DNA from: Kiritimatiellia bacterium
GTDB lineage: Bacteria; Verrucomicrobiota; Kiritimatiellia; SLAD01
Length of the DNA: 34,682 nucleotides
Direction of reading: 5' to 3'
Assembly (NCBI GenBank): GCA_007126515.1
Contig: SLBD01000180.1
Span: 1 to 34,682, forward strand
The position numbers were made by a program, and so were the translations under genes. Position 1 is the first letter of the stretch; each line of letters begins with the position of its first letter. The notes beneath the pieces were generated by a model. That model did not search any database. It was not told the DNA's origin and saw only the letters and a list, made by a program, of their open reading frames with translations. Shown one piece after another: positions 21,756 to 34,112 of this stretch.

Positions 21756-24700
21756 TTAGTTCCCACCCACCCGAGCAAAGGGAACGGTGAACTCGTCGCC
21801 ATCTTCCCACTCAAAGCTGGAGTTGCTGTCGGTGGTGCCCGGCGAATCCAATGTCGCGTTGTCAAACGGGATGGAGCTAACAGCGGAATCCGCACCCGCC
21901 GAAATAAACACGCCAATGCCGTTGTTCTCGATGTGCGCACGGGTGATGTTCAAGGTGCTCAGCGGCACGGCCATCTCATAGAACGTGTTCCGAGAATGAT
22001 CATGCCCGATGTAGTTCGTCAACTCGACGTTCGGATTATCCAAGAAATCGTCGATATCGGGAACACCGTACAATGAGGTGCCGACAAATCCTTGGCTTTT
22101 GGCGATTTGAATGCCGGCCTGGGTCTCAGTGAAATAATTCACACCCAGATCGTCGTCGCCCGCCCAAGCACCTCCGACCGCTCGCGACAAATAGGGGTGA
22201 TCGCCCCACAGATCCGAGCGCATGGCAATTTGCACGTTCGGCAGAGTCGACCCGACAAAGGAATCAAGTTTGTCCCACATCAACGGCCCCACGCCGCCCG
22301 CTCCAGTATCAATGGAAATGAACTGCAGGATGCCTTGGCTATTATAAACGCTGCCACCGGCCGCCGACCCGGCATTGGATGGATCAAGGATGTCCGTGAT
22401 GTCCACAAACTGCCAAGCCAAATACAAGTTGTCATCATCCCAACGCGCCCACAGGTGCGTCAGATTGGCGGGTGCTTCGTGCATGGTCCAGTTTCCACCA
22501 AGCGAGCGCGGGTCGCTGTTGGCCAAATTCAGGGCAATCAGGTTGTCGTTATTCCATTCGTTCCCTGTGTTGACACCATCGATTGTGACCGTGCCTGATT
22601 GGCCAAAGGTCGGATTCGTCGAGGGAGGCGTCATTCCGCCGGGTTCGCCACCGTTGCCACCGCCATTATCACCACCGATGGTCACAATATAATCGTTGCC
22701 GTCGTTGCTATCCCAATGCTCTACACCATCGTAATCCCGGATCATTACCGCAAAACGGACAACAGTACCATCAGGGTGTGTGCCCAACGAAATATGCCAC
22801 CAATCACCGTCCTCCCAATCTTCATTGCGATCCATGGGCGTCAACGGCCAATCACCCTCGCAAGGAGGATCGATGCAGTAGACGATGTAGGCAGCTTCGG
22901 AGGAATTCTCTGGGAAGGCCGCCGTATCAATCCAGACTTCATTGTCTTCGCTGACAAACACGCTGGTTCCGAAGATGTATTCAAGGTCTTCGGTTTCACC
23001 GTTATCGTCACCAATGACAAGACCATGATTCTGGCCGTCGTTGTCCTCGGTAACGCTAACTCCGTCTCCATCCGTCATAACGACATAAAACTGCACCGTG
23101 TCGCCGTCGTTCAACGTGCCGATGTTGAATGACCACCACTCCCAGTTGCCTCCGTCCAAGCTGGCATTACGAACCATAGGAGCTTCCACCATTGCTCCCA
23201 TGGCACTTCCGCTCGTAGTCGTCACCTGATAGAAGAGCGTTGCGTAGGCCGCAGCACCCGGCGGAGTTGCCCCCGCATCGACCCATGTATCGTTGTTTTC
23301 ACCTTCAACACGAGTCTGGACTTGCGTGTCTTGAATTTCACTTTCCTCACCGCCACCATTACCCGGAGGCGTGTGACCGGCGCCATCCAAGAAGCGAACG
23401 CGGTAGAAGCCCATGGGATCGCCATTCAACTCGATTTCCTCGGTCACATCGATACCTTCACCAATGTCTACGAACTCTTCGTCTAAGCTCGGCGTATGTT
23501 GCACCATATATCGACGGCTCCCGCCGGGTGCCTGGAAGGCGAAACGGCCTGCCGTTCCCATATGCATAAGGATCATTGGCACTTGGTCGTCCATTGGATC
23601 GATGTTCAGCAAGAACGCTTCCAGATGCGTGTATCCACTGGGTGTCATCTGGCTACCCAGATTCGGCGTCGTTGGATCCAGTCCAAGTCCCTCGTACCAC
23701 CAGTCCTCAACACCATCCAGATTGCTGTCCTGGCCGGAACCTGCCTGACGAGTAATCGTCACACTAGCCACGGCGGCGGAATCAACAATCGAGAGGTTGT
23801 TGAAGAAGAAGTCGCGGTTTGAGTTCTGTCCGTCATCGGTGCCGTTGTTCCAGGACCAAGCGCGGAACTGGGCGATTTCGCCACTGAAGGTTCCGGTCAT
23901 GGTCTGGCCTTCGCTACCATCTGGATTAATCGTCACCGAGTAGGCATTCGGTCCTGTCAGCGTGAAGCTGATGTTGATACCGGCTGCCGTCCAGGCAATG
24001 TCAGTCTCCCCTTCCGGCGTCAGGTAGTATGTCTCACCGCCATTGAAGTAGAGTTCCCACAACGTGTCGCCAGCCGCATCGCGCAAGGCGACGCCTACAG
24101 AACCGCCTTCTTCCCAGATCCAACCATTGCGCATGCGCACGCTGAAGGTTTGACCTTCTGCCAGAGGCGCAGCAAAGGGCCGAATCGCATCAATCCCATG
24201 GCCACCGGAATGCGACCACAAGCCGAACTCAGAATCTCCCAAGAAGGATCCAGCTTCTTCGCCGCCCACATTGAGCTGCCACGCTTCGAATCCGGTTCCC
24301 TGATTAGATCCGGTTGTCCAATCGCTGTAGTTACCAGCATTATCAGACGCGATGATCCCGGAACCACCAGCGCTGACGGTGATCACATTGTCACCGACCG
24401 CCAATGGGATTCCAGAAATCGACCAGGTCGCACCCGCAGGTGTCGTCCCAGACACTCCATTCAACTGATTGATCCAGCTCAGATTGCCCGCAATGCCCTC
24501 TGCCGTACCCAAAACGGTATAGGTCCCCGTCGCAAACGGCACAGTGATGTTGGAAGCTGGGTCTGTGATCACTATGCCAGGCTCCGGCGTTTCACCATCT
24601 TGCTGACGGGTAATCGTCACCGAAGCCGTCACAGTCTGGGGCTCACCGGCTCCTTCCTGAGTTATTTCCAAGTTATCAAAGAAATAATCACGATTGGAAT

Positions 24701-27700
24701 TGAACTCATCGCCAGTCCCATTATTCCACGACCAGAACCGGACATTGTCGATGCCGCCCAGAATGGTACCGGTGATCACTCGTTCGGTGCCTCCGACGGG
24801 TGTCAGCGAAACCGAATACTCCGTTGCACTTGTCAAGGTAAACGCAATATCAATGCCAGCATCGGTCCAGTTGATATCGGTTTCACCTTCTGGCGTGTTG
24901 TAGAAGTCATCGCCGCCATTGAAGTAGATTTCCCAGCGGGTATCTTCTCCACCCCGCAAGGCCATACCAATCGATCCACCGTCTTCCCAAATCCAACCAT
25001 TCTGGATGCGGGCATGGAACGTTTGGCCAACTGCCAAGCTAGACGAGAAGGAACGCACGGCTTCCACGCCGTTGCCACCTTCATGAGACCACAGGCCAAA
25101 GCCCGAACCGCCGACGAAGTTGCCGGCATCATCGGTCACATTGATCGCCCATGTGCCAAAGCCACTCCCTTGATTACTTCCATCGGACCAACCGGCGCCG
25201 TAGTTTGCTGATGAATCTTCGGCAATGGTGTCACCAGCGCCACTCCCCGCGACTTCGCCGGAAATCGTGATGAGGTTGGCTCCGACGGCCAAAGCGATAT
25301 CATCCAATGTCCATTCGGCGGCTCCAGCAATCGTGCCCGAAGCCCCCGTCAAGGAGTTGCTCCAAGTCAAGTCGCCGAGAATGCCTTCGCTGGTCCCTTC
25401 GAGTGTAAAGGTATCCACTTCATGAGCAACGGTGGTGTTTGACGGCGGCACCGCGATCTCAATCGGAGCGCCACACTCGACAACCGCAAGGTAGTTGTTG
25501 CCGTTATTGTTCGCCCAGCTTTGCTCTTCTTCCTCGTCTTCGAGCATCACTGCATATTCAATTTCCGTGCAGGCTGCAAAGCTGCCGATGTTGGCAGACC
25601 AGAGGTCGTTTTGACCAAAGGATCCGGCGCCGTCTGTCACAAAGACCAAGTCGACTTCGAACCAGTTGTCCCCATCCGGGCTGTAGACCACATTGCCGCC
25701 TACGGCTTCGCCTTCCGGCCAAGATTCAATAAAGATGACGATTTCATCGGCGGGGCCAATCTGACCGTTAACCGGCTCATGGCGAACATTGCCGATCCAC
25801 TGCAAGCCAGACTCTGGCGGCGGCGGCTCATTTCCACCATGCTCTTCCAGCACCAGCATCTGCACGAAGGCCGTACCCACGTTATTATTGCCATCAGAGG
25901 GGAATGTAACGGAAATGCCGTTATCTAATAGATCCTGCCCCGTGCGGCCGTCACCTGGCCACAAATAGGCATTGGGATCATCGCCCATCAGATTCCGCAC
26001 GTTGTAATTGCGCGACGGATCCAAGGAAATGGCATTCACGCCAGCTAGCGCAAACGTTCCAGAGCGCTCATTCCACGGGTCCAAGTTGACAAAGTTCAGC
26101 ATCACATTTTGATGTGCCGGATCCCAACCAAAGCGGTCGTACTTCAAGACCGAGAAGATGCGATCATGAGCGCCGCCCGTGGTCCGGTCCAGGTACCACT
26201 GGTCATGCGTGCGCGTGGCCGGATTGGCCATACGGGCATGATGCAGGCGCGAGTACGCCTCTTCCAACAAGCCATCGCGATTATTCCACAAGGCCTGCAT
26301 ATTGTGCCACTTGAAGATGTCCGGAATCCAACGACCGAACTGGAAACGGAAAATAGAGAACCCAAAGTTGTCTTCATACCCCAACTCCTGGCCTTGATAC
26401 ATCTGGGGCGCTCCATCCACAACCGCGCCGGCCGCGTAGCGGGAGAACGTCCACCAACGATCTTCCGGAGCATTCTGGTCATGGTTGATCAAACCGCGCA
26501 TGATGCCAGCGAAACCGTAATCGGTCTTGTTCTCATCAATGATCCCACGGATTTCCATGGTGTTCGCCGAGCTGCCCAGCACTTGCCAGACCCAGTTCTG
26601 GTTGATGATGTCCATGTGTCGACCCGCACGTTGAGATACCGGGCCACCATCCAAGGATTCCGCCATGAATAGGAAGTCCCATTTGGTCTGACGAATCTTG
26701 TTCACAAAATATTCCCACGCTTGCGGAGGTAAGCCTTGGGCGTAATCGCAACGGAAACCGCCGAGGGTGCCGCCGGACTTTTCAATCCAGTAGGTGCCGA
26801 AGTAGGCGAAATATTCTGTCATGCGGCGCACGTCTGAGCCGGGTTGGGTAATATCCCAAAACGTATCGTCTTCGGCCGTGACCTCAAACAGGGCTGGATA
26901 GGTACCCCAAAACAGCGCCGTCACATCCGGCCACTTACCAAAATCGTTCCGTTCGGCGGGCGCAGGCCCCATTTCTCCCGCATTACGGGCAGGCAGCCAA
27001 AAATGGAAATCATCCTGATTATATCCATATTCATCGCAGGGCAGATGAGTCCCATTGACGTAGCGCGAATACCAATTCGGCAGGATGTCCGCAATCAACG
27101 CATTCGGGTTGGCAGCGGGCTGGGTCGGGTCATCCGGATCACGGCCGATTTCCGCGTCCCAGGAAGTATGGTTGAAAATGATGTCAAAAAAGAAATCGAT
27201 GCCACGCGCACCGGCGGCGGCTGCGAAATCCTGAAATGCGTCCATCGCGGCCTCGCGGGTGTTTCCGTCGCCCATGTGCGGGGCCACTTCCCACATATTC
27301 TGAATCGAGTACGGACTGCCCGGCCCTTGCGATTTATCAACACAGGGGTGATCGCCAATCGGGTGAATGGGCTGGATCCAAAGTGTGTTCACGCCCAGAT
27401 TTTCGAAATAATCCAAATTGGCGTTGCTATTCGGGTTCATCAGGTCTTCGAAGGTGCTGCGCGTGCCTTCGGTGTCGCCTGTGGCGTTGATGACGTTGAC
27501 CTGCAATTCGTAGAGGATGACATCGCGAGCCTTGGTCGGCGAGACCATGATTGCTGTATCGCGACCACCGACCCAGCGCCATTCCGTGTCACCCGAACGA
27601 CGATATCGCGCTGTGACTCGGTAGGCCCCAGTCTTATTGACTGGCAAAGTCGCTTCCCACTTGCCACCGCCTGCATTGTTCAGCGGGATTCCGACAAAAT

Positions 27701-28013
27701 AATTCGTACTAGACGGGGCAGGCGCCGGAATCGAAAACGGATCCTGATCCCCCAATGTGGCGTAGTCGCGGCGATTCAAGTTCGACCACAACTGCGCTTC
27801 CTCGACATTGCTGTCATTGGGCCAAAACTCAAACGACACCGTCTCAAATTGCGCCGTATCTTCATTGATATAGTAATTCAAGGTCAGGTAATCATGGTTG
27901 GCACCATTGACTGCCAGATATGGACCTTGAGCCAGCGCCGCTGTCGACGTGAGCAGAAAGAGAACGAGCAAGAAACCGCGCAGCATGCGGTCCAAACTAG
28001 ATACTGAATTCAT
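21756..28013 (-). CDS. Secreted multidomain GH13 alpha-amylase-family enzyme
   Basis: 2085 residues, start at 28013 with GAGGA upstream. Signal peptide 1-28 (cut after ALA). An N-terminal beta domain (about 30-160) precedes the GH13 barrel (about 163-625), with all motifs: 'FFFDIIFNH' (Asp277, His282), 'GFRCDYAQG' (Arg421, nucleophile Asp423), 'FLFMAES' (acid/base Glu452) and 'INHDQ' (Asp512). Then a GH13 C-terminal beta domain (to 722); a starch-binding-like module (738-848); two Ig-like units each carrying a ~190-residue insert (851-1138 and 1148-1424); 'DSNLDGVEDWW..LGLDP' spacer (1429-1450); a 'FAFQAPGGSRRYMVQ' beta unit; two more starch-binding-like modules (1565-1667, 1683-1780) with 'DWWHISLGT' and 'DSNDGNDY'; a Gly-rich linker; and a CBM9/DOMON-like C-terminus (1805-2085). 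Expected to degrade starch-like alpha-glucans outside the cell; exact specificity unresolved. Confidence 0.9.
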   Translation of the reverse strand: MNSVSSLDRMLRGFLLVLFLLTSTAALAQGPYLAVNGANHDYLTLNYYINEDTAQFETVSFEFWPNDSNVEEAQLWSNLNRRDYATLGDQDPFSIPAPAPSSTNYFVGIPLNNAGGGKWEATLPVNKTGAYRVTARYRRSGDTEWRWVGGRDTAIMVSPTKARDVILYELQVNVINATGDTEGTRSTFEDLMNPNSNANLDYFENLGVNTLWIQPIHPIGDHPCVDKSQGPGSPYSIQNMWEVAPHMGDGNTREAAMDAFQDFAAAAGARGIDFFFDIIFNHTSWDAEIGRDPDDPTQPAANPNALIADILPNWYSRYVNGTHLPCDEYGYNQDDFHFWLPARNAGEMGPAPAERNDFGKWPDVTALFWGTYPALFEVTAEDDTFWDITQPGSDVRRMTEYFAYFGTYWIEKSGGTLGGFRCDYAQGLPPQAWEYFVNKIRQTKWDFLFMAESLDGGPVSQRAGRHMDIINQNWVWQVLGSSANTMEIRGIIDENKTDYGFAGIMRGLINHDQNAPEDRWWTFSRYAAGAVVDGAPQMYQGQELGYEDNFGFSIFRFQFGRWIPDIFKWHNMQALWNNRDGLLEEAYSRLHHARMANPATRTHDQWYLDRTTGGAHDRIFSVLKYDRFGWDPAHQNVMLNFVNLDPWNERSGTFALAGVNAISLDPSRNYNVRNLMGDDPNAYLWPGDGRTGQDLLDNGISVTFPSDGNNNVGTAFVQMLVLEEHGGNEPPPPESGLQWIGNVRHEPVNGQIGPADEIVIFIESWPEGEAVGGNVVYSPDGDNWFEVDLVFVTDGAGSFGQNDLWSANIGSFAACTEIEYAVMLEDEEEEQSWANNNGNNYLAVVECGAPIEIAVPPSNTTVAHEVDTFTLEGTSEGILGDLTWSNSLTGASGTIAGAAEWTLDDIALAVGANLITISGEVAGSGAGDTIAEDSSANYGAGWSDGSNQGSGFGTWAINVTDDAGNFVGGSGFGLWSHEGGNGVEAVRSFSSSLAVGQTFHARIQNGWIWEDGGSIGMALRGGEDTRWEIYFNGGDDFYNTPEGETDINWTDAGIDIAFTLTSATEYSVSLTPVGGTERVITGTILGGIDNVRFWSWNNGTGDEFNSNRDYFFDNLEITQEGAGEPQTVTASVTITRQQDGETPEPGIVITDPASNITVPFATGTYTVLGTAEGIAGNLSWINQLNGVSGTTPAGATWSISGIPLAVGDNVITVSAGGSGIIASDNAGNYSDWTTGSNQGTGFEAWQLNVGGEEAGSFLGDSEFGLWSHSGGHGIDAIRPFAAPLAEGQTFSVRMRNGWIWEEGGSVGVALRDAAGDTLWELYFNGGETYYLTPEGETDIAWTAAGINISFTLTGPNAYSVTINPDGSEGQTMTGTFSGEIAQFRAWSWNNGTDDGQNSNRDFFFNNLSIVDSAAVASVTITRQAGSGQDSNLDGVEDWWYEGLGLDPTTPNLGSQMTPSGYTHLEAFLLNIDPMDDQVPMILMHMGTAGRFAFQAPGGSRRYMVQHTPSLDEEFVDIGEGIDVTEEIELNGDPMGFYRVRFLDGAGHTPPGNGGGEESEIQDTQVQTRVEGENNDTWVDAGATPPGAAAYATLFYQVTTTSGSAMGAMVEAPMVRNASLDGGNWEWWSFNIGTLNDGDTVQFYVVMTDGDGVSVTEDNDGQNHGLVIGDDNGETEDLEYIFGTSVFVSEDNEVWIDTAAFPENSSEAAYIVYCIDPPCEGDWPLTPMDRNEDWEDGDWWHISLGTHPDGTVVRFAVMIRDYDGVEHWDSNDGNDYIVTIGGDNGGGNGGEPGGMTPPSTNPTFGQSGTVTIDGVNTGNEWNNDNLIALNLANSDPRSLGGNWTMHEAPANLTHLWARWDDDNLYLAWQFVDITDILDPSNAGSAAGGSVYNSQGILQFISIDTGAGGVGPLMWDKLDSFVGSTLPNVQIAMRSDLWGDHPYLSRAVGGAWAGDDDLGVNYFTETQAGIQIAKSQGFVGTSLYGVPDIDDFLDNPNVELTNYIGHDHSRNTFYEMAVPLSTLNITRAHIENNGIGVFISAGADSAVSSIPFDNATLDSPGTTDSNSSFEWEDGDEFTVPFARVGGN

Positions 28014-29026: not shown

Positions 29027-31093
29027 TCATTCGCCGGACCCGCGGTCAGCCGCCCCCTTAAACAAGGAGCTAGGTCCCTCCACGCCCCCCGTGACCCGCA
29101 TTGCGTCCACCGGCGCGCCGTTCATGGACACGGCCAGAGCTTCGCCATCGGACGGTTCCCAAAGAATCAGCTGTACATCCGGCAGGGAGTGCTCGCTCAT
29201 CATTTTTGCGACGACATCGAGTTGGTTCCTCGATCGCGTCATCGTTACCTCCAACTGCTCCCCCACACCTTCTTTGTAAGCGTTGCTGATGCCATCATCC
29301 CAGTAGAATCGACGCGTTGCGACACCCGCATGTGCTGGTGGCACCAAAAACAAGTTCAGTTGACTCCACGAAACGTCTGCCGTTCCCAGCACAGGTGGCA
29401 AGGTTGCCACGATCGCTCCTTGGCGCACAAATAACGGAATTTGATCCAGCGCCGGTTTCGCCGAAACCATCTGCGGTCCTTCATGAATGGTGCCCGACCA
29501 GACGTCCAACCAAGGTCCAGGCGGCAACCAGACATCGCGTGCGGCCTCCTTGCCTTCTTCTCTATCAATAATCGGCGCCACCAACAAGTCGTCCCCAAAC
29601 AAATACTGCGTGTCATCTGCTGCTTCAGGAAACTCCGGCCACAGCAAATCACAACGCCGGGCAATCGGCAGTCCGCGCTTCCACGCTTGAAACGCTGCGG
29701 CATAGATCACGGGGAGCAAGCGATACCGCAACTGCAAGTAGTCGCGAACAATACGTTCCGCCGACTCCCCATACGCCCAGGGATAGCGACACGTATTTCG
29801 GGATGAATGCAATCGCGCAATGGGAGAAAAGACCCCAAATTGCATAAATCGAATCACATACTCCGCGTCCGGCTCCCCCATATGCCCTGTCAAATCTTCA
29901 CTTAAATAGGGCAACAAGGATTCGATGGCGTAATTCAACATGTTTTTCACGCCCAACTGCAAAAAGCGCCAGTGACTCCGAGTGTCACCCGTCCACCAAA
30001 TCGGATACCGATGCGCGGCCGGATGCGAGGGATGAGCAGGACGCCCGTTCCAAATGCCATCGACATTCGACATGATCAAGGGTCGCCGATTCGTGGCATG
30101 GGCCGCTGTCATGTCGTGATACAGCCGCATCCCCCACACCTCTTTGGTCAATCCCTGTTCCGGCGACTGCAAATGCGTGTGCCAGTTGCGATCATACCAC
30201 CAAGCGTCTGCGCCTTTCGACAGCAGCGAATCCAGACCCTGCTTCCGAAACGCCAACTCATTGGAAGCTAGGGCATGTTCGCCTACTGGCTCTGGATGAT
30301 CATTGAATACCACCCTCACACCCCGGTCATGGCACTTTTGTAAAAACCGGGCCATGTCAGGAAACAGCTCGGCATCGATGTCATAGCCACATGACCCGCC
30401 TTGCCGCCAGTCTGTATCCACCACAAAGACATCCAGCGGGAAGCCGCGCTCACGAAATTCATCAATCAAGCCCAAGGCATCTTGTTCGCTGTACGGATGA
30501 TACCGACTGTACCAAAACCCGAACGCATACAACGGCGGCATCGGCACCGGCCCGGTCAACTGGATATAATCCCGTAAAAACTGATCATAGCCCGCCGCTT
30601 TGGGCAAAAACACATACCAATCACGCACGCACTCAACAATACCCCAGCCGGACTCATCCTCCTCACACTCAGAGGGGGGAGGCAGCGCTCCCCATTCAGG
30701 CGGAACCAATCGCGGACTATCAGCCAGAATCCAGTAATCCGGTAAATTCGACGGCGCAGGCATCGGTTTCAATACACCATCACGACGGGTCAAGCGATGC
30801 TTCCACCCCCCATCCTTGGAGTGCATCTCAATCTCCGTGATCCGCTTGATAGTTTGCGGGATCCGCAGCGATGCATGGGCCAACTCCACCAGGACGTGAT
30901 CCTCTGTATACACAGCATCCAGCGGAGCCGGACTCTCAAAATCGCGATTGAGGACCGTGAACGTGGGACGATCTTCAAACCCCTCAGGACTTTCCTGCTC
31001 GATCCGGAACAACCATGGCGTCAACGCCTGAACCCGGATTCGATCGTTCACCCGCACTTCACGTTCTTCTCGTATTTCGCCAGAGCTTTGCAT
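29027..31093 (-). CDS. GH31 family glycosidase (alpha-glucosidase/xylosidase-like), cytoplasmic
   Basis: 688 residues from the ATG at 31093, with AAAGGA seven bases upstream; an ATG at 31114 would add seven residues. No signal peptide. The N-terminal beta domain ('LTPWLFRIEQE') leads to the GH31 barrel from 'PPLYAFGFWYSRYHPYSEQDALGLIDEFRERGFPLDVFVVDTDW'. The nucleophile is Asp301 in 'DAWWYDRNW', and the acid/base is Asp370 in 'PIWWTGDTRSHW'. The nucleophile motif differs from the common 'WxDMNE'. 'PIARLHSSRNTCRYPWAYG' and 'YLFGDDLLVAPI' complete the family pattern. The C-terminal beta domains are present and full length. It would cleave alpha-linked oligosaccharides in the cytoplasm; whether glucose or xylose is released is not decidable from sequence. 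Confidence 0.87.
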   Translation of the reverse strand: MQSSGEIREEREVRVNDRIRVQALTPWLFRIEQESPEGFEDRPTFTVLNRDFESPAPLDAVYTEDHVLVELAHASLRIPQTIKRITEIEMHSKDGGWKHRLTRRDGVLKPMPAPSNLPDYWILADSPRLVPPEWGALPPPSECEEDESGWGIVECVRDWYVFLPKAAGYDQFLRDYIQLTGPVPMPPLYAFGFWYSRYHPYSEQDALGLIDEFRERGFPLDVFVVDTDWRQGGSCGYDIDAELFPDMARFLQKCHDRGVRVVFNDHPEPVGEHALASNELAFRKQGLDSLLSKGADAWWYDRNWHTHLQSPEQGLTKEVWGMRLYHDMTAAHATNRRPLIMSNVDGIWNGRPAHPSHPAAHRYPIWWTGDTRSHWRFLQLGVKNMLNYAIESLLPYLSEDLTGHMGEPDAEYVIRFMQFGVFSPIARLHSSRNTCRYPWAYGESAERIVRDYLQLRYRLLPVIYAAAFQAWKRGLPIARRCDLLWPEFPEAADDTQYLFGDDLLVAPIIDREEGKEAARDVWLPPGPWLDVWSGTIHEGPQMVSAKPALDQIPLFVRQGAIVATLPPVLGTADVSWSQLNLFLVPPAHAGVATRRFYWDDGISNAYKEGVGEQLEVTMTRSRNQLDVVAKMMSEHSLPDVQLILWEPSDGEALAVSMNGAPVDAMRVTGGVEGPSSLFKGAADRGSGE

Positions 31094-31358
31094 TCGCCAA
31101 TCCTTTCTGCTCATCTTTTCTTCATGAATTCAGGACAACTACAACAGGAACCCGCCCAGGTCCAGTCCCGTTGCCCCCCTCAGGCAGGGCAGACGCATCA
31201 AAATTTGTATCTTTGTCTGCGACTGGATCTCTTGCTGACGAGCAGGTTTTGCGAAGGACTCGATGGGCAAAGGGCGAGACGGGCTCTTCCTGCCCACACC
31301 GGGGGTAGACATTTGTCCCTCCCTTGATCCCTCAACACTTCTCGGGTACCCTCTTGTT

Positions 31359-32831
31359 ATGGCTTCTGCCACACAAACCATGGACCTATTAGCCCCGCTA
31401 TCTGCTCATCGCTGGGATGAATCCGCAGCGCGGCACCTGCTCAATCGTGTTGGCTTCGGCCCCACGGCGGAGGAAGTGACGGCCTTTGCCATGATGGGTA
31501 TTGATGATGCGGTTGACACACTCATCCATCCTGAACGCACGGCCTTCACCCTGCCTCCGCCCAGCTGGGCGACAGCCCCCCCCGGCACCACATCGTCTCA
31601 GCTCAGCGAGACAGAGTCATTATCGGCGGGACGGATATCCTCCCTGCGACAGTGGTGGGTGCAACGCATGCACACATCGCCGCGCCCCTTGGAAGAGAAA
31701 ATGACGCTCTTCTGGCATAGTCATTTCGCCACGCAATCTGACAAAGTCACCGATCCACTCCTCCTGTACCGGCACAACCAACTGCTTCGCGATCATGGCC
31801 TCGATTTCTTCAACCTACTTGTCCTCCGCGTGGCTCGAGATGCTGCGATGGTCCGATTCCTCGATCTCGACACCAGCCAAAGCCAGCGGCCCAACGACAA
31901 TTTCGCGCGGGAGTTGATGGAATTGTATACCCTGGGTGAAGGCAACTACAGCGAGACCGATGTCCGCGAAGCCGCCCGCGCCTTTACCGGCTGGACCGTC
32001 CAAGACGGTCGGGCCGTCTTGGATCCGCGACGCTTCGACGACGGCCGCAAAACATTTCTGGGACGCACCGGCCCCTGGCGCAGCGAAGACATCATCCGCA
32101 TCCTCTTTGAACAGCCAACAGCCACTCAATTCGTCACCACCAAACTCTTCTCCTTTTTTGCCTATCCCGACCCCGAGCCGGAAGTCGTCACGGCCCTCGC
32201 AGACAGTTTTGCTGACGTTCACTTCAGCATTCGTGATTGGCTCGCCCGACTCTTCCGCTCCGAACTCTTCTACTCAACGGCAGCCCAAGGCAGCCGCGTC
32301 AAAAGCCCAGCGGAATACGTGATTGGACTCTATCGCCAACTCGGCATCGACGACCCACCGTTTGCCATCACTGAACTCGCCATGCGGCGGATGGGACAAG
32401 AACTCCTCAATCCCCCCGACGTCGATGGCTGGAAAGAAGGCACTCACTGGATCAACGCTCAAACCCTAATGATGCGTTATCACTTCGCCTATTTCTGCAC
32501 CACCGGCACCGTTGTCGAAGGATTGATCGATCGCAATCGCAGTGCCTATCGCGCCCCCGAGCGAATCACGGATCGTTCCCCTCTTTTTCAAGCAGCCGAC
32601 TGGATTGAGGAATCCGACTACGGCCAGCCCACAGCATGCGCGCGCCAAGCCATCCGCCGCATTTTCGGTCGCCCTGCCCTACCCGCCGAAGAGCAGCGCT
32701 GGTCTGAGTACTTGCAAACCGCCAGCAACAACGCCCGGGTCGATTTTCATCTGGGCCGCCGCATGCCCCGCGAACGATTTCAAAGTGCCGCCTATCTCCT
32801 GTTATGTTCACCCGAGTATCAAGTGTGTTGA
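31359..32831 (+). CDS. DUF1800 protein
   Basis: 490 residues from the ATG at 31359. An ATG far upstream (31263) would add 32 low-complexity residues, and neither has a good ribosome site; 31380 is another option. 'LLNRVGFGPTAEEVTAFAMMGIDDAVDTLI', 'KMTLFWHSHFATQSDKV', 'ARELMELYTLGEGNYSETDVREAARAFTGW' and 'QELLNPPDVDGWKEGTHWIN' are the standard DUF1800 (PF08811) blocks. No signal peptide is visible, although the partner downstream is a Tat substrate. DUF1800 and DUF1501 are paired in many PVC and proteobacterial genomes; their job is unknown. The DUF1501 gene begins three bases after the stop. Confidence 0.88.
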   Translation: MASATQTMDLLAPLSAHRWDESAARHLLNRVGFGPTAEEVTAFAMMGIDDAVDTLIHPERTAFTLPPPSWATAPPGTTSSQLSETESLSAGRISSLRQWWVQRMHTSPRPLEEKMTLFWHSHFATQSDKVTDPLLLYRHNQLLRDHGLDFFNLLVLRVARDAAMVRFLDLDTSQSQRPNDNFARELMELYTLGEGNYSETDVREAARAFTGWTVQDGRAVLDPRRFDDGRKTFLGRTGPWRSEDIIRILFEQPTATQFVTTKLFSFFAYPDPEPEVVTALADSFADVHFSIRDWLARLFRSELFYSTAAQGSRVKSPAEYVIGLYRQLGIDDPPFAITELAMRRMGQELLNPPDVDGWKEGTHWINAQTLMMRYHFAYFCTTGTVVEGLIDRNRSAYRAPERITDRSPLFQAADWIEESDYGQPTACARQAIRRIFGRPALPAEEQRWSEYLQTASNNARVDFHLGRRMPRERFQSAAYLLLCSPEYQVC

Positions 32832-32834
32832 GCC

Positions 32835-34112
32835 ATGTCCCGATTCCAATCCCAACTTTTCAGCCGTCGCGAGTTTCTCCGTAGCAGCTTGATGCTGACC
32901 GCAGCCGCCGGCACCGCGCCGTCCTTTCTGACGCGCACCGCATTGGCGGCTCAAAATCCGAATGGTCTCACCTCCCTCTCCAGCGTCACCGATGATCGCA
33001 TCCTTGTCGTCGTCCAGTTATCCGGCGGTAACGACGGCTTGAACACCATCATTCCCTATACTGATGATCGATATTATGAATTCCGGCCGACCCTCGCGTT
33101 GTCTCGCCCGCAACAGATTCGCGTGAATGACGAGTTGGCCGTCCACGCCGCTTTGCGTCCTCTGCAACGCGTGTTTGACGAAGGTGAGTGCACGTGGATC
33201 CAAGGTGTCGGCTATCCTAATCCCAACCGCTCTCATTTCCGCTCCATGGAGATCTGGCAGACCGCGTCCGACGCCAGCGAGCAAATCCGCACCGGCTGGA
33301 TCGGCCGCTATTTCGACAACGCCTGCAGTGGCGCACCTGGAGTTCCCGAAGCCGTCACCATCGGTCGCGAATTACCCGCAGCCATGCGCCGCGCCAACGG
33401 CCACGATGCCGGCATCACCGTAGAACGGCCCGACCAATTTGCGTGGGCCACTCGCGGCCGCACCACCACGCATCGTCGCCAGCAACGCGATATGCTACAA
33501 TTCTTGCAGCAACCCGAACACACCCCGTTGCAAGGCAGCACCATCGACTACCTGCAACACACCGCCCTGCAAGCCATCGCATCGACCGATGTCATCGCCG
33601 CCGCCGAGCGCTCCTATCGCTCCACCGTCGATTACCCGTCTACTCGCTTTGGCCATTCCCTTCAGCAAATCGCCAAACTGATCAGTGGCGGCGTAGCGGG
33701 CCGCGTCTACTACGCCTCCATCGGCGGCTTCGACACCCACGCCAGCCAAGCCGGAGTCCACACGCGGTTACTCAATGACCTATCCACCAGCCTCGTCGCC
33801 TTTCGACAGGACTTGATCCGGCTACGGCAATGGGAACGCGTCGCCGTCATGGGCTTCTCCGAATTTGGTCGGCGCGTCGACGAAAACGGCAGTCAAGGCA
33901 CCGATCACGGCGCCGCCGGGCCCATGTTCGTCATGGGCAAACATTTCCAAGGAGGTTTCGTTGGCAAGCATCCGCCCCTCGATCAACTCGGACGTAGCGA
34001 CCTGATTTTCCATACCGACTTCCGCCAAGTCTACGCCACCCTCTTGCAGAACTGGCTCGGCACCGATCCCCTCCCCATCCTCGGCAGCAACTTCGAACCG
34101 ATTCAGATTTAG
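32835..34112 (+). CDS. Tat-exported DUF1501 protein
   Basis: 425 residues. The N-terminus 'FSRREFLRSSLMLTAAAGTAPSFLTRTALAA' is a twin-arginine signal (SRREFL), cleaved after 'ALAA'. 'ILVVVQLSGGNDGLNTIIPY' and 'YYASIGGFDTHASQ', then 'VAVMGFSEFGRRVDENGSQGTDHGAAGPMFVMG' are DUF1501 (PF07394) motifs, a family in the alkaline phosphatase/sulfatase superfamily with metal-ligand-like Asp and His residues in 'GFDTH' and 'GTDHG'. It is translationally adjacent to DUF1800 (3-bp gap). Probably acts in the periplasm after export as a folded, metal-loaded protein; substrate unknown. Confidence 0.9.
   Translation: MSRFQSQLFSRREFLRSSLMLTAAAGTAPSFLTRTALAAQNPNGLTSLSSVTDDRILVVVQLSGGNDGLNTIIPYTDDRYYEFRPTLALSRPQQIRVNDELAVHAALRPLQRVFDEGECTWIQGVGYPNPNRSHFRSMEIWQTASDASEQIRTGWIGRYFDNACSGAPGVPEAVTIGRELPAAMRRANGHDAGITVERPDQFAWATRGRTTTHRRQQRDMLQFLQQPEHTPLQGSTIDYLQHTALQAIASTDVIAAAERSYRSTVDYPSTRFGHSLQQIAKLISGGVAGRVYYASIGGFDTHASQAGVHTRLLNDLSTSLVAFRQDLIRLRQWERVAVMGFSEFGRRVDENGSQGTDHGAAGPMFVMGKHFQGGFVGKHPPLDQLGRSDLIFHTDFRQVYATLLQNWLGTDPLPILGSNFEPIQI

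Follow-up and report, generated by a model that had tools for sequence, protein, structure and literature searches.

In RTX adhesins, split Ig-like domains hold sugar-binding domains clear of the polypeptide chain so that the binding face points outward (PMC12077191, PMC10865825). In MpIBP, FrhA and AhLap, the Ig-like domain is interrupted by a larger beta-sandwich of the PA14 or CBM type whose termini lie together, with an SBD of 175 aa, for instance, held within a UKD of 118 aa (PMC10865825, PMC12077191). Close termini are a main requirement for inserted domains, and a census of domain insertions in ECOD found the insert to be smaller than its host in 77% of events (PMC13114784).

Here we describe interrupted Ig-like domains in a secreted GH13-type amylase of a Kiritimatiellia bacterium (GCA_007126515.1, contig SLBD01000180.1, positions 1 to 34,682 of the forward strand; this stretch of 34,682 nucleotides is the window below). 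By analogy, the geometry appears to be the same in kind as in the adhesins: a beta-sandwich larger than the Ig-like domain splits its sequence and would be projected off the chain, although sugar binding was shown in the adhesins and is proposed here. The host of FrhA is split after its first strand, whereas the host described here is split before its last; the guest belongs to a concanavalin A-like family rather than to the sugar-binding sandwiches of the adhesins; and the carriers are secreted enzymes rather than surface adhesins. A Pfam scan of the window protein that recovered its Alpha-amylase domain gave no match to RTX repeats at E <= 1, and the protein does not appear to be a large type I-secreted RTX-repeat adhesin. 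Our literature search found no account of this nested pair of Ig host and guest in Kiritimatiellae.

A nested unit present twice in a secreted amylase

The amylase gene occupies window positions 21756..28013 on the minus strand and encodes 2085 aa (Pfam Alpha-amylase, E 8.7e-11, above the cut-off). Its GH13 catalytic region spans aa ~155-720 (25854..27551, minus strand), of which the Pfam match covers aa 199-288 only; D423 (FRCD), E452 (MAES) and D512 (NHD), located by their motifs, are candidates for what we take to be the catalytic residues. A GH31 glycoside hydrolase gene (29027..31114; Pfam GH31, E 4.9e-49) adjoins it upstream on the same strand, as would befit an alpha-glucan locus. Farther on, a DUF1800 and DUF1501 pair lies on the opposite strand (31263..34112). 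The C-terminal third of the amylase (aa ~1425-2085; 23741..21756) gave no convincing Pfam match, and its last ~280 aa are, judged by eye, presumably CBM9/DOMON-like.

Between the catalytic region and the C-terminal third lie two nested units, both on the minus strand and delimited by alignment. In unit 1 (aa 850-1137; 25466..24603), strands A to F of the Ig-like host, placed by alignments and the host profile (aa 852-920; 25254..25460), end in 'GANLITISGE'. The lectin-fold insert follows at aa 931-1119 (24657..25223; profile search and alignments), and the host resumes with its G strand, 'TASVTITRQ', at aa 1129-1137 (24603..24629; motif control and coevolution). In unit 2 (aa 1144-1424; 24584..23742), strands A to F (aa 1146-1215; 24369..24578), located in an AlphaFold2 (AF2) model and alignments, end in 'GDNVITVSA'. 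They are followed by the insert (aa 1222-1412; 23778..24350), delimited by a model of the insert alone and by fold search, and by the G strand 'VASVTITRQ' (aa 1415-1423; 23745..23771), which is strand 269-277 of the unit model and coevolves with strands B and F. The preliminary description, which had proposed two Ig-like domains each interrupted by a domain of ~190 residues, thus located both correctly, and every insert motif that it listed as shared is present in both units.

Trimmed to cores of 189 aa (unit 1) and 190 aa (unit 2), the inserts share 58.0% identity (Z 37 against shuffles); for the joined Ig hosts the identity is 54.7% (Z 17 against shuffles). These values lie far beyond chance, so the repeat in the amylase is real. 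The 58% protein identity, the Z of 37 and the recurrence of the unit across many genomes rule out an assembly artefact or chance repeat. A search of the same genome found further Ig-nested copies in three other contigs (two in C199, one in C145 and two in C86, the first of the C86 copies far diverged), giving at least seven in four proteins, and "inserted twice", as it was first put, is better worded as one nested unit present twice. That the insert was then duplicated together with its host remains plausible, but in a tree of units, units of other proteins are at least as close to the two window units as these are to one another, and the two are not recovered as sisters. The doubled state may for this reason be old; recent tandem duplication receives no support from the tree.

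An insert within the F-G loop of an Ig-like host

The host is an Ig-like domain of ~77 aa interrupted between strands F and G. Could the insert instead be a separate bead on the chain, with the TITR strand part of either the insert or the domain that follows? Guest copies do occur in tandem as ordinary beads in one protein (L186); a TITR strand assigned to another domain would have contradicted the preliminary description, but the evidence on its partners places it with the host. Numbering unit residue 1 as aa 1146, direct-coupling analysis of 95 nested units ranks I275-Y20, which joins strands G and B, second among all pairs, and T276-D63, joining G and F, third. When the analysis is restricted to host columns, the antiparallel register of F and G (residue sum 339) has a mean z of 1.90; permutations, which do not preserve relatedness, give 0.25 +/- 0.26, and 0 of 100 reach 1.90. 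Registers in which the G strand forms a hairpin with the last strand of the insert peak at a z of only 0.92, and this difference holds whether or not the permutation keeps relatedness.

The distribution of the strand agrees with its coevolution. A strict 'VTITR' motif follows 75 of the 94 Ig-nested inserts, and most of the other 19 carry variants such as TINRR or LIIR; it follows none of the 35 free inserts and none of the 6 nested in CotH proteins. Conversely, Ig domains without a guest possess the strand. The uninterrupted repeat form given in the preliminary description indeed exists (for example GANPITITATNAIGDSATNTVTITR in L104 and GENTITVFATNDLGGAGSDNVVITR in L110), and we counted 16 uninterrupted host copies, a few of them weak matches, against 97 nested ones. 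L271 (G038:C19:13500-21500, minus frame 1), a single open frame spanning 2591 aa or more, contains many tandem Ig repeats in which copies with the guest in the F-G loop alternate with empty ones. After one repeat of L271 (aa 265-339) comes another stretch that resembles the insert but is more divergent.

The AF2 model of unit 2, built from a 35-row alignment (pLDDT 93.3, pTM 0.77), has strand 62-70 followed by 74-79 and strand 257-266 followed by 269-277, pairing being deduced from this order together with the coevolution. Strand order, coevolution and empty hosts all point to a host that resumes after the guest, its two halves forming one Ig domain. A bead-on-a-string architecture is ruled out by the coevolution and the strand controls, and we regard it as very improbable indeed; insertion of the guest into a loop of an Ig host, as originally suggested, appears settled as far as sequence and structure prediction can settle it.

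The joined host resembles domain B of glucodextranase (Glucodextran_B, PF09136) weakly but over its whole length, with a profile match in 4 of 12 members (best E 0.001); the window's own host scores 16.6 bits, below the Pfam gathering cut-off of 27. Unlike the nested host, the 83-position PF09136 model has no room for a guest.

A lectin-fold guest in two kinds of host

What kind of domain is the guest? Modeled by itself, the insert reaches a pLDDT of 96.4 and a pTM of 0.92, and it is predicted to form a concanavalin A-like two-sheet jelly-roll sandwich resembling L-type lectins. Foldseek comparison with the PDB gave 154 matches at E <= 0.001 (best E about 1e-5, modest TM-scores of 0.4-0.6, ~10% identity), headed by ERGIC-53, Emp47, VIP36, legume lectin, calreticulin, GH16, PL7 and YesU. 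The guest is thus like ERGIC-53, VIP36, Emp47, legume lectin and YesU in fold, but at ~10% identity it has no sequence-profile match in the PDB or Pfam, and their known calcium and sugar sites were not identified in it. The earlier label "lectin-like" accordingly holds for the fold, while for carbohydrate binding it is a proposal. Concanavalin A-like folds serve many functions, including those of lyases and hydrolases. Their termini usually lie near each other, a favorable property in a guest. A Pfam scan of 79 diverse members gave a best E of 0.017 and no family common to more than 3 of them; NCBIfam gave no family for the guest in the window protein or two stand-alone proteins (only PEP-CTERM-related models and one sub-cut-off flagellin match); and a PDB sequence-profile search gave no usable match. 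The family appears to be described by neither Pfam nor NCBIfam. Across the 79 diverse rows, mean column identity is 34%.

With the insert profile, matches were obtained in 27 of 58 near relatives and, in a sample of 388 genomes of the phylum, in 36, of which 33 belong to the window's own class; a pattern-limited scan of 85,000 species returned 18 loci, all in Verrucomicrobia or Kiritimatiellae. Spread by plasmids was considered, and a plasmid search gave no match for the guest. Of the 145 distinct inserts, profiles place 94 in Ig hosts and reading a further 5; 6 are CotH-nested and 40 are neither. The suggestion that the insert be sought in other extracellular enzymes was borne out, as dozens carry it in the same Ig loop. 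Guest copies also lie within open frames of 12,857 and 7,352 aa encoding giant proteins (G282:C14 and G131:C1).

A second host is found in the window's own genome (C42), where the guest follows a CotH kinase domain and lies between 'GYRFVEW' and 'FSANETITVDW...YQAVFE' of an InlB-B-repeat-like domain. Such nesting occurs in L007, L017, L023, L043, L130 and L142, with the CotH kinase domain directly before the host in L007 and L017, the two checked. The L007 host scores 23.4 bits against a cut-off of 23.6 for the divergent InlB B-repeat PF18998, the match being confined to the N half by the interrupting guest, and uninterrupted homologues of this host occur in L066 (GFRFVEWRQDGVPAGTETAIEIALSAATEWEAVFE), L068, L080 and L082. 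CotH inserts cluster, together with L172, inside the Ig-rich part of an unrooted tree (support 80-90), pointing to movement of the guest between hosts in a direction that the tree leaves unrooted. Several origins of the Ig-loop insertion, rather than one, would fit the insert tree, whose starred branches force at least 5 label changes, but its long branches make this reading unsafe. One guest in the window's genome (L006:322-1227, in C86) occupies the usual Ig host and is far diverged, grouping with L087 and L096 and not with the other guests of that genome; it may belong to a separate lineage that occupies this loop or may have replaced an earlier guest there.

The guest also occurs outside both hosts. 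In about ten small proteins (e.g., L051, L052, L180, L188 and L192), a single guest lies between an N terminus resembling a signal peptide and a tail resembling PEP-CTERM, with L051 above the cut-off of the PEP-CTERM model and L052 just under it, and L186 carries three guests in tandem. Since stand-alone and tandem copies exist, the guest is an independent domain, and the confident model of the isolated insert suggests that it also folds by itself. An autonomous guest with more than one host family agrees with the ECOD census, but a guest of ~190 aa in a host of ~77 aa, about 2.5 times its size, reverses the usual size relation (PMC13114784).

A probable glycan-binding mount on secreted enzymes

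Based on these analyses, we propose the following model. Strands A to F of the Ig domain would be laid down first, after which the chain would enter the guest at the F-G hairpin loop. The autonomous concanavalin A-like sandwich of ~190 aa would form within this loop, and the returning chain would form strand G, completing the Ig domain by pairing with F. Since a single hairpin anchors both of its ends, the guest would project laterally from the chain and leave its far face exposed. There it could bind a glycan, probably starch or another alpha-glucan, next to the amylase, keeping the enzyme on its polymer; we infer a resulting gain in activity. That the split Ig domains are mounts presenting a probable glycan-binding module beside the amylase, likely for such a ligand, is the account that we favor and consider probable.

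The partners of the guest support a role with glycans. Among 61 labelled inserts, 50 accompany GH13, GH57 or GH31 enzymes, 8 proteases and 3 esterases (raw counts, not scaled to the secreted proteome), and the starch modules CBM53, CBM25 and CBM48 are frequent neighbors. GH57 and GH13 inserts are intermixed in the tree, and an alpha-glucan ligand is suggested because a shared ligand would be common to alpha-glucan enzymes of different families. Alpha-glucan cannot be its only setting, since the guest also accompanies proteases, esterases and CotH kinases and occurs alone with PEP-CTERM.

These other settings raise the possibility that the guest attaches to the surface or exopolysaccharide of the producing cell, retaining secreted enzymes close to it, in which case any secreted enzyme could carry it. 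S8 and M12 proteases, esterases, CotH proteins and the small PEP-CTERM proteins would fit such a tether, PEP-CTERM being a sorting signal that is associated, in other bacteria, with exopolysaccharide. We nevertheless consider it unlikely, as most enzyme partners are alpha-glucan enzymes from three glycoside hydrolase families, and the protease inserts form nearly a clade of their own (2 label changes), as if specialised. It is still less probable that the insert serves only for spacing or stability, binds no ligand and persists because the F-G loop tolerates it. Hosts lacking a guest exist, and no ligand or binding residue of the guest was identified; the conservation across diverse members, the lectin fold and the use of the guest as an independent secreted domain all argue for more than a passive role.

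The glycan-binding mount that we favor extends split-Ig mounting beyond bacterial adhesins, the setting in which it had been described, to secreted enzymes that degrade polysaccharides; the building principle was already known, and the guest family and the type of carrier are new. The guest greatly exceeds its host in size, contrary to the usual relation, and a protein in which occupied and unoccupied Ig repeats adjoin offers a clean natural system for testing the contribution of a nested binding domain. More tentatively, the guest may be a carbohydrate-binding module of a new family that has alpha-glucans at its center and moves among unrelated host domains, in the Ig F-G loop and the InlB-B loop, as well as occurring free. 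Secreted enzymes of this class of Verrucomicrobiota would then use the split host as their standard mounting. If the guest does bind alpha-glucans, it would constitute a new CBM family extending over GH13, GH57 and GH31 enzymes.
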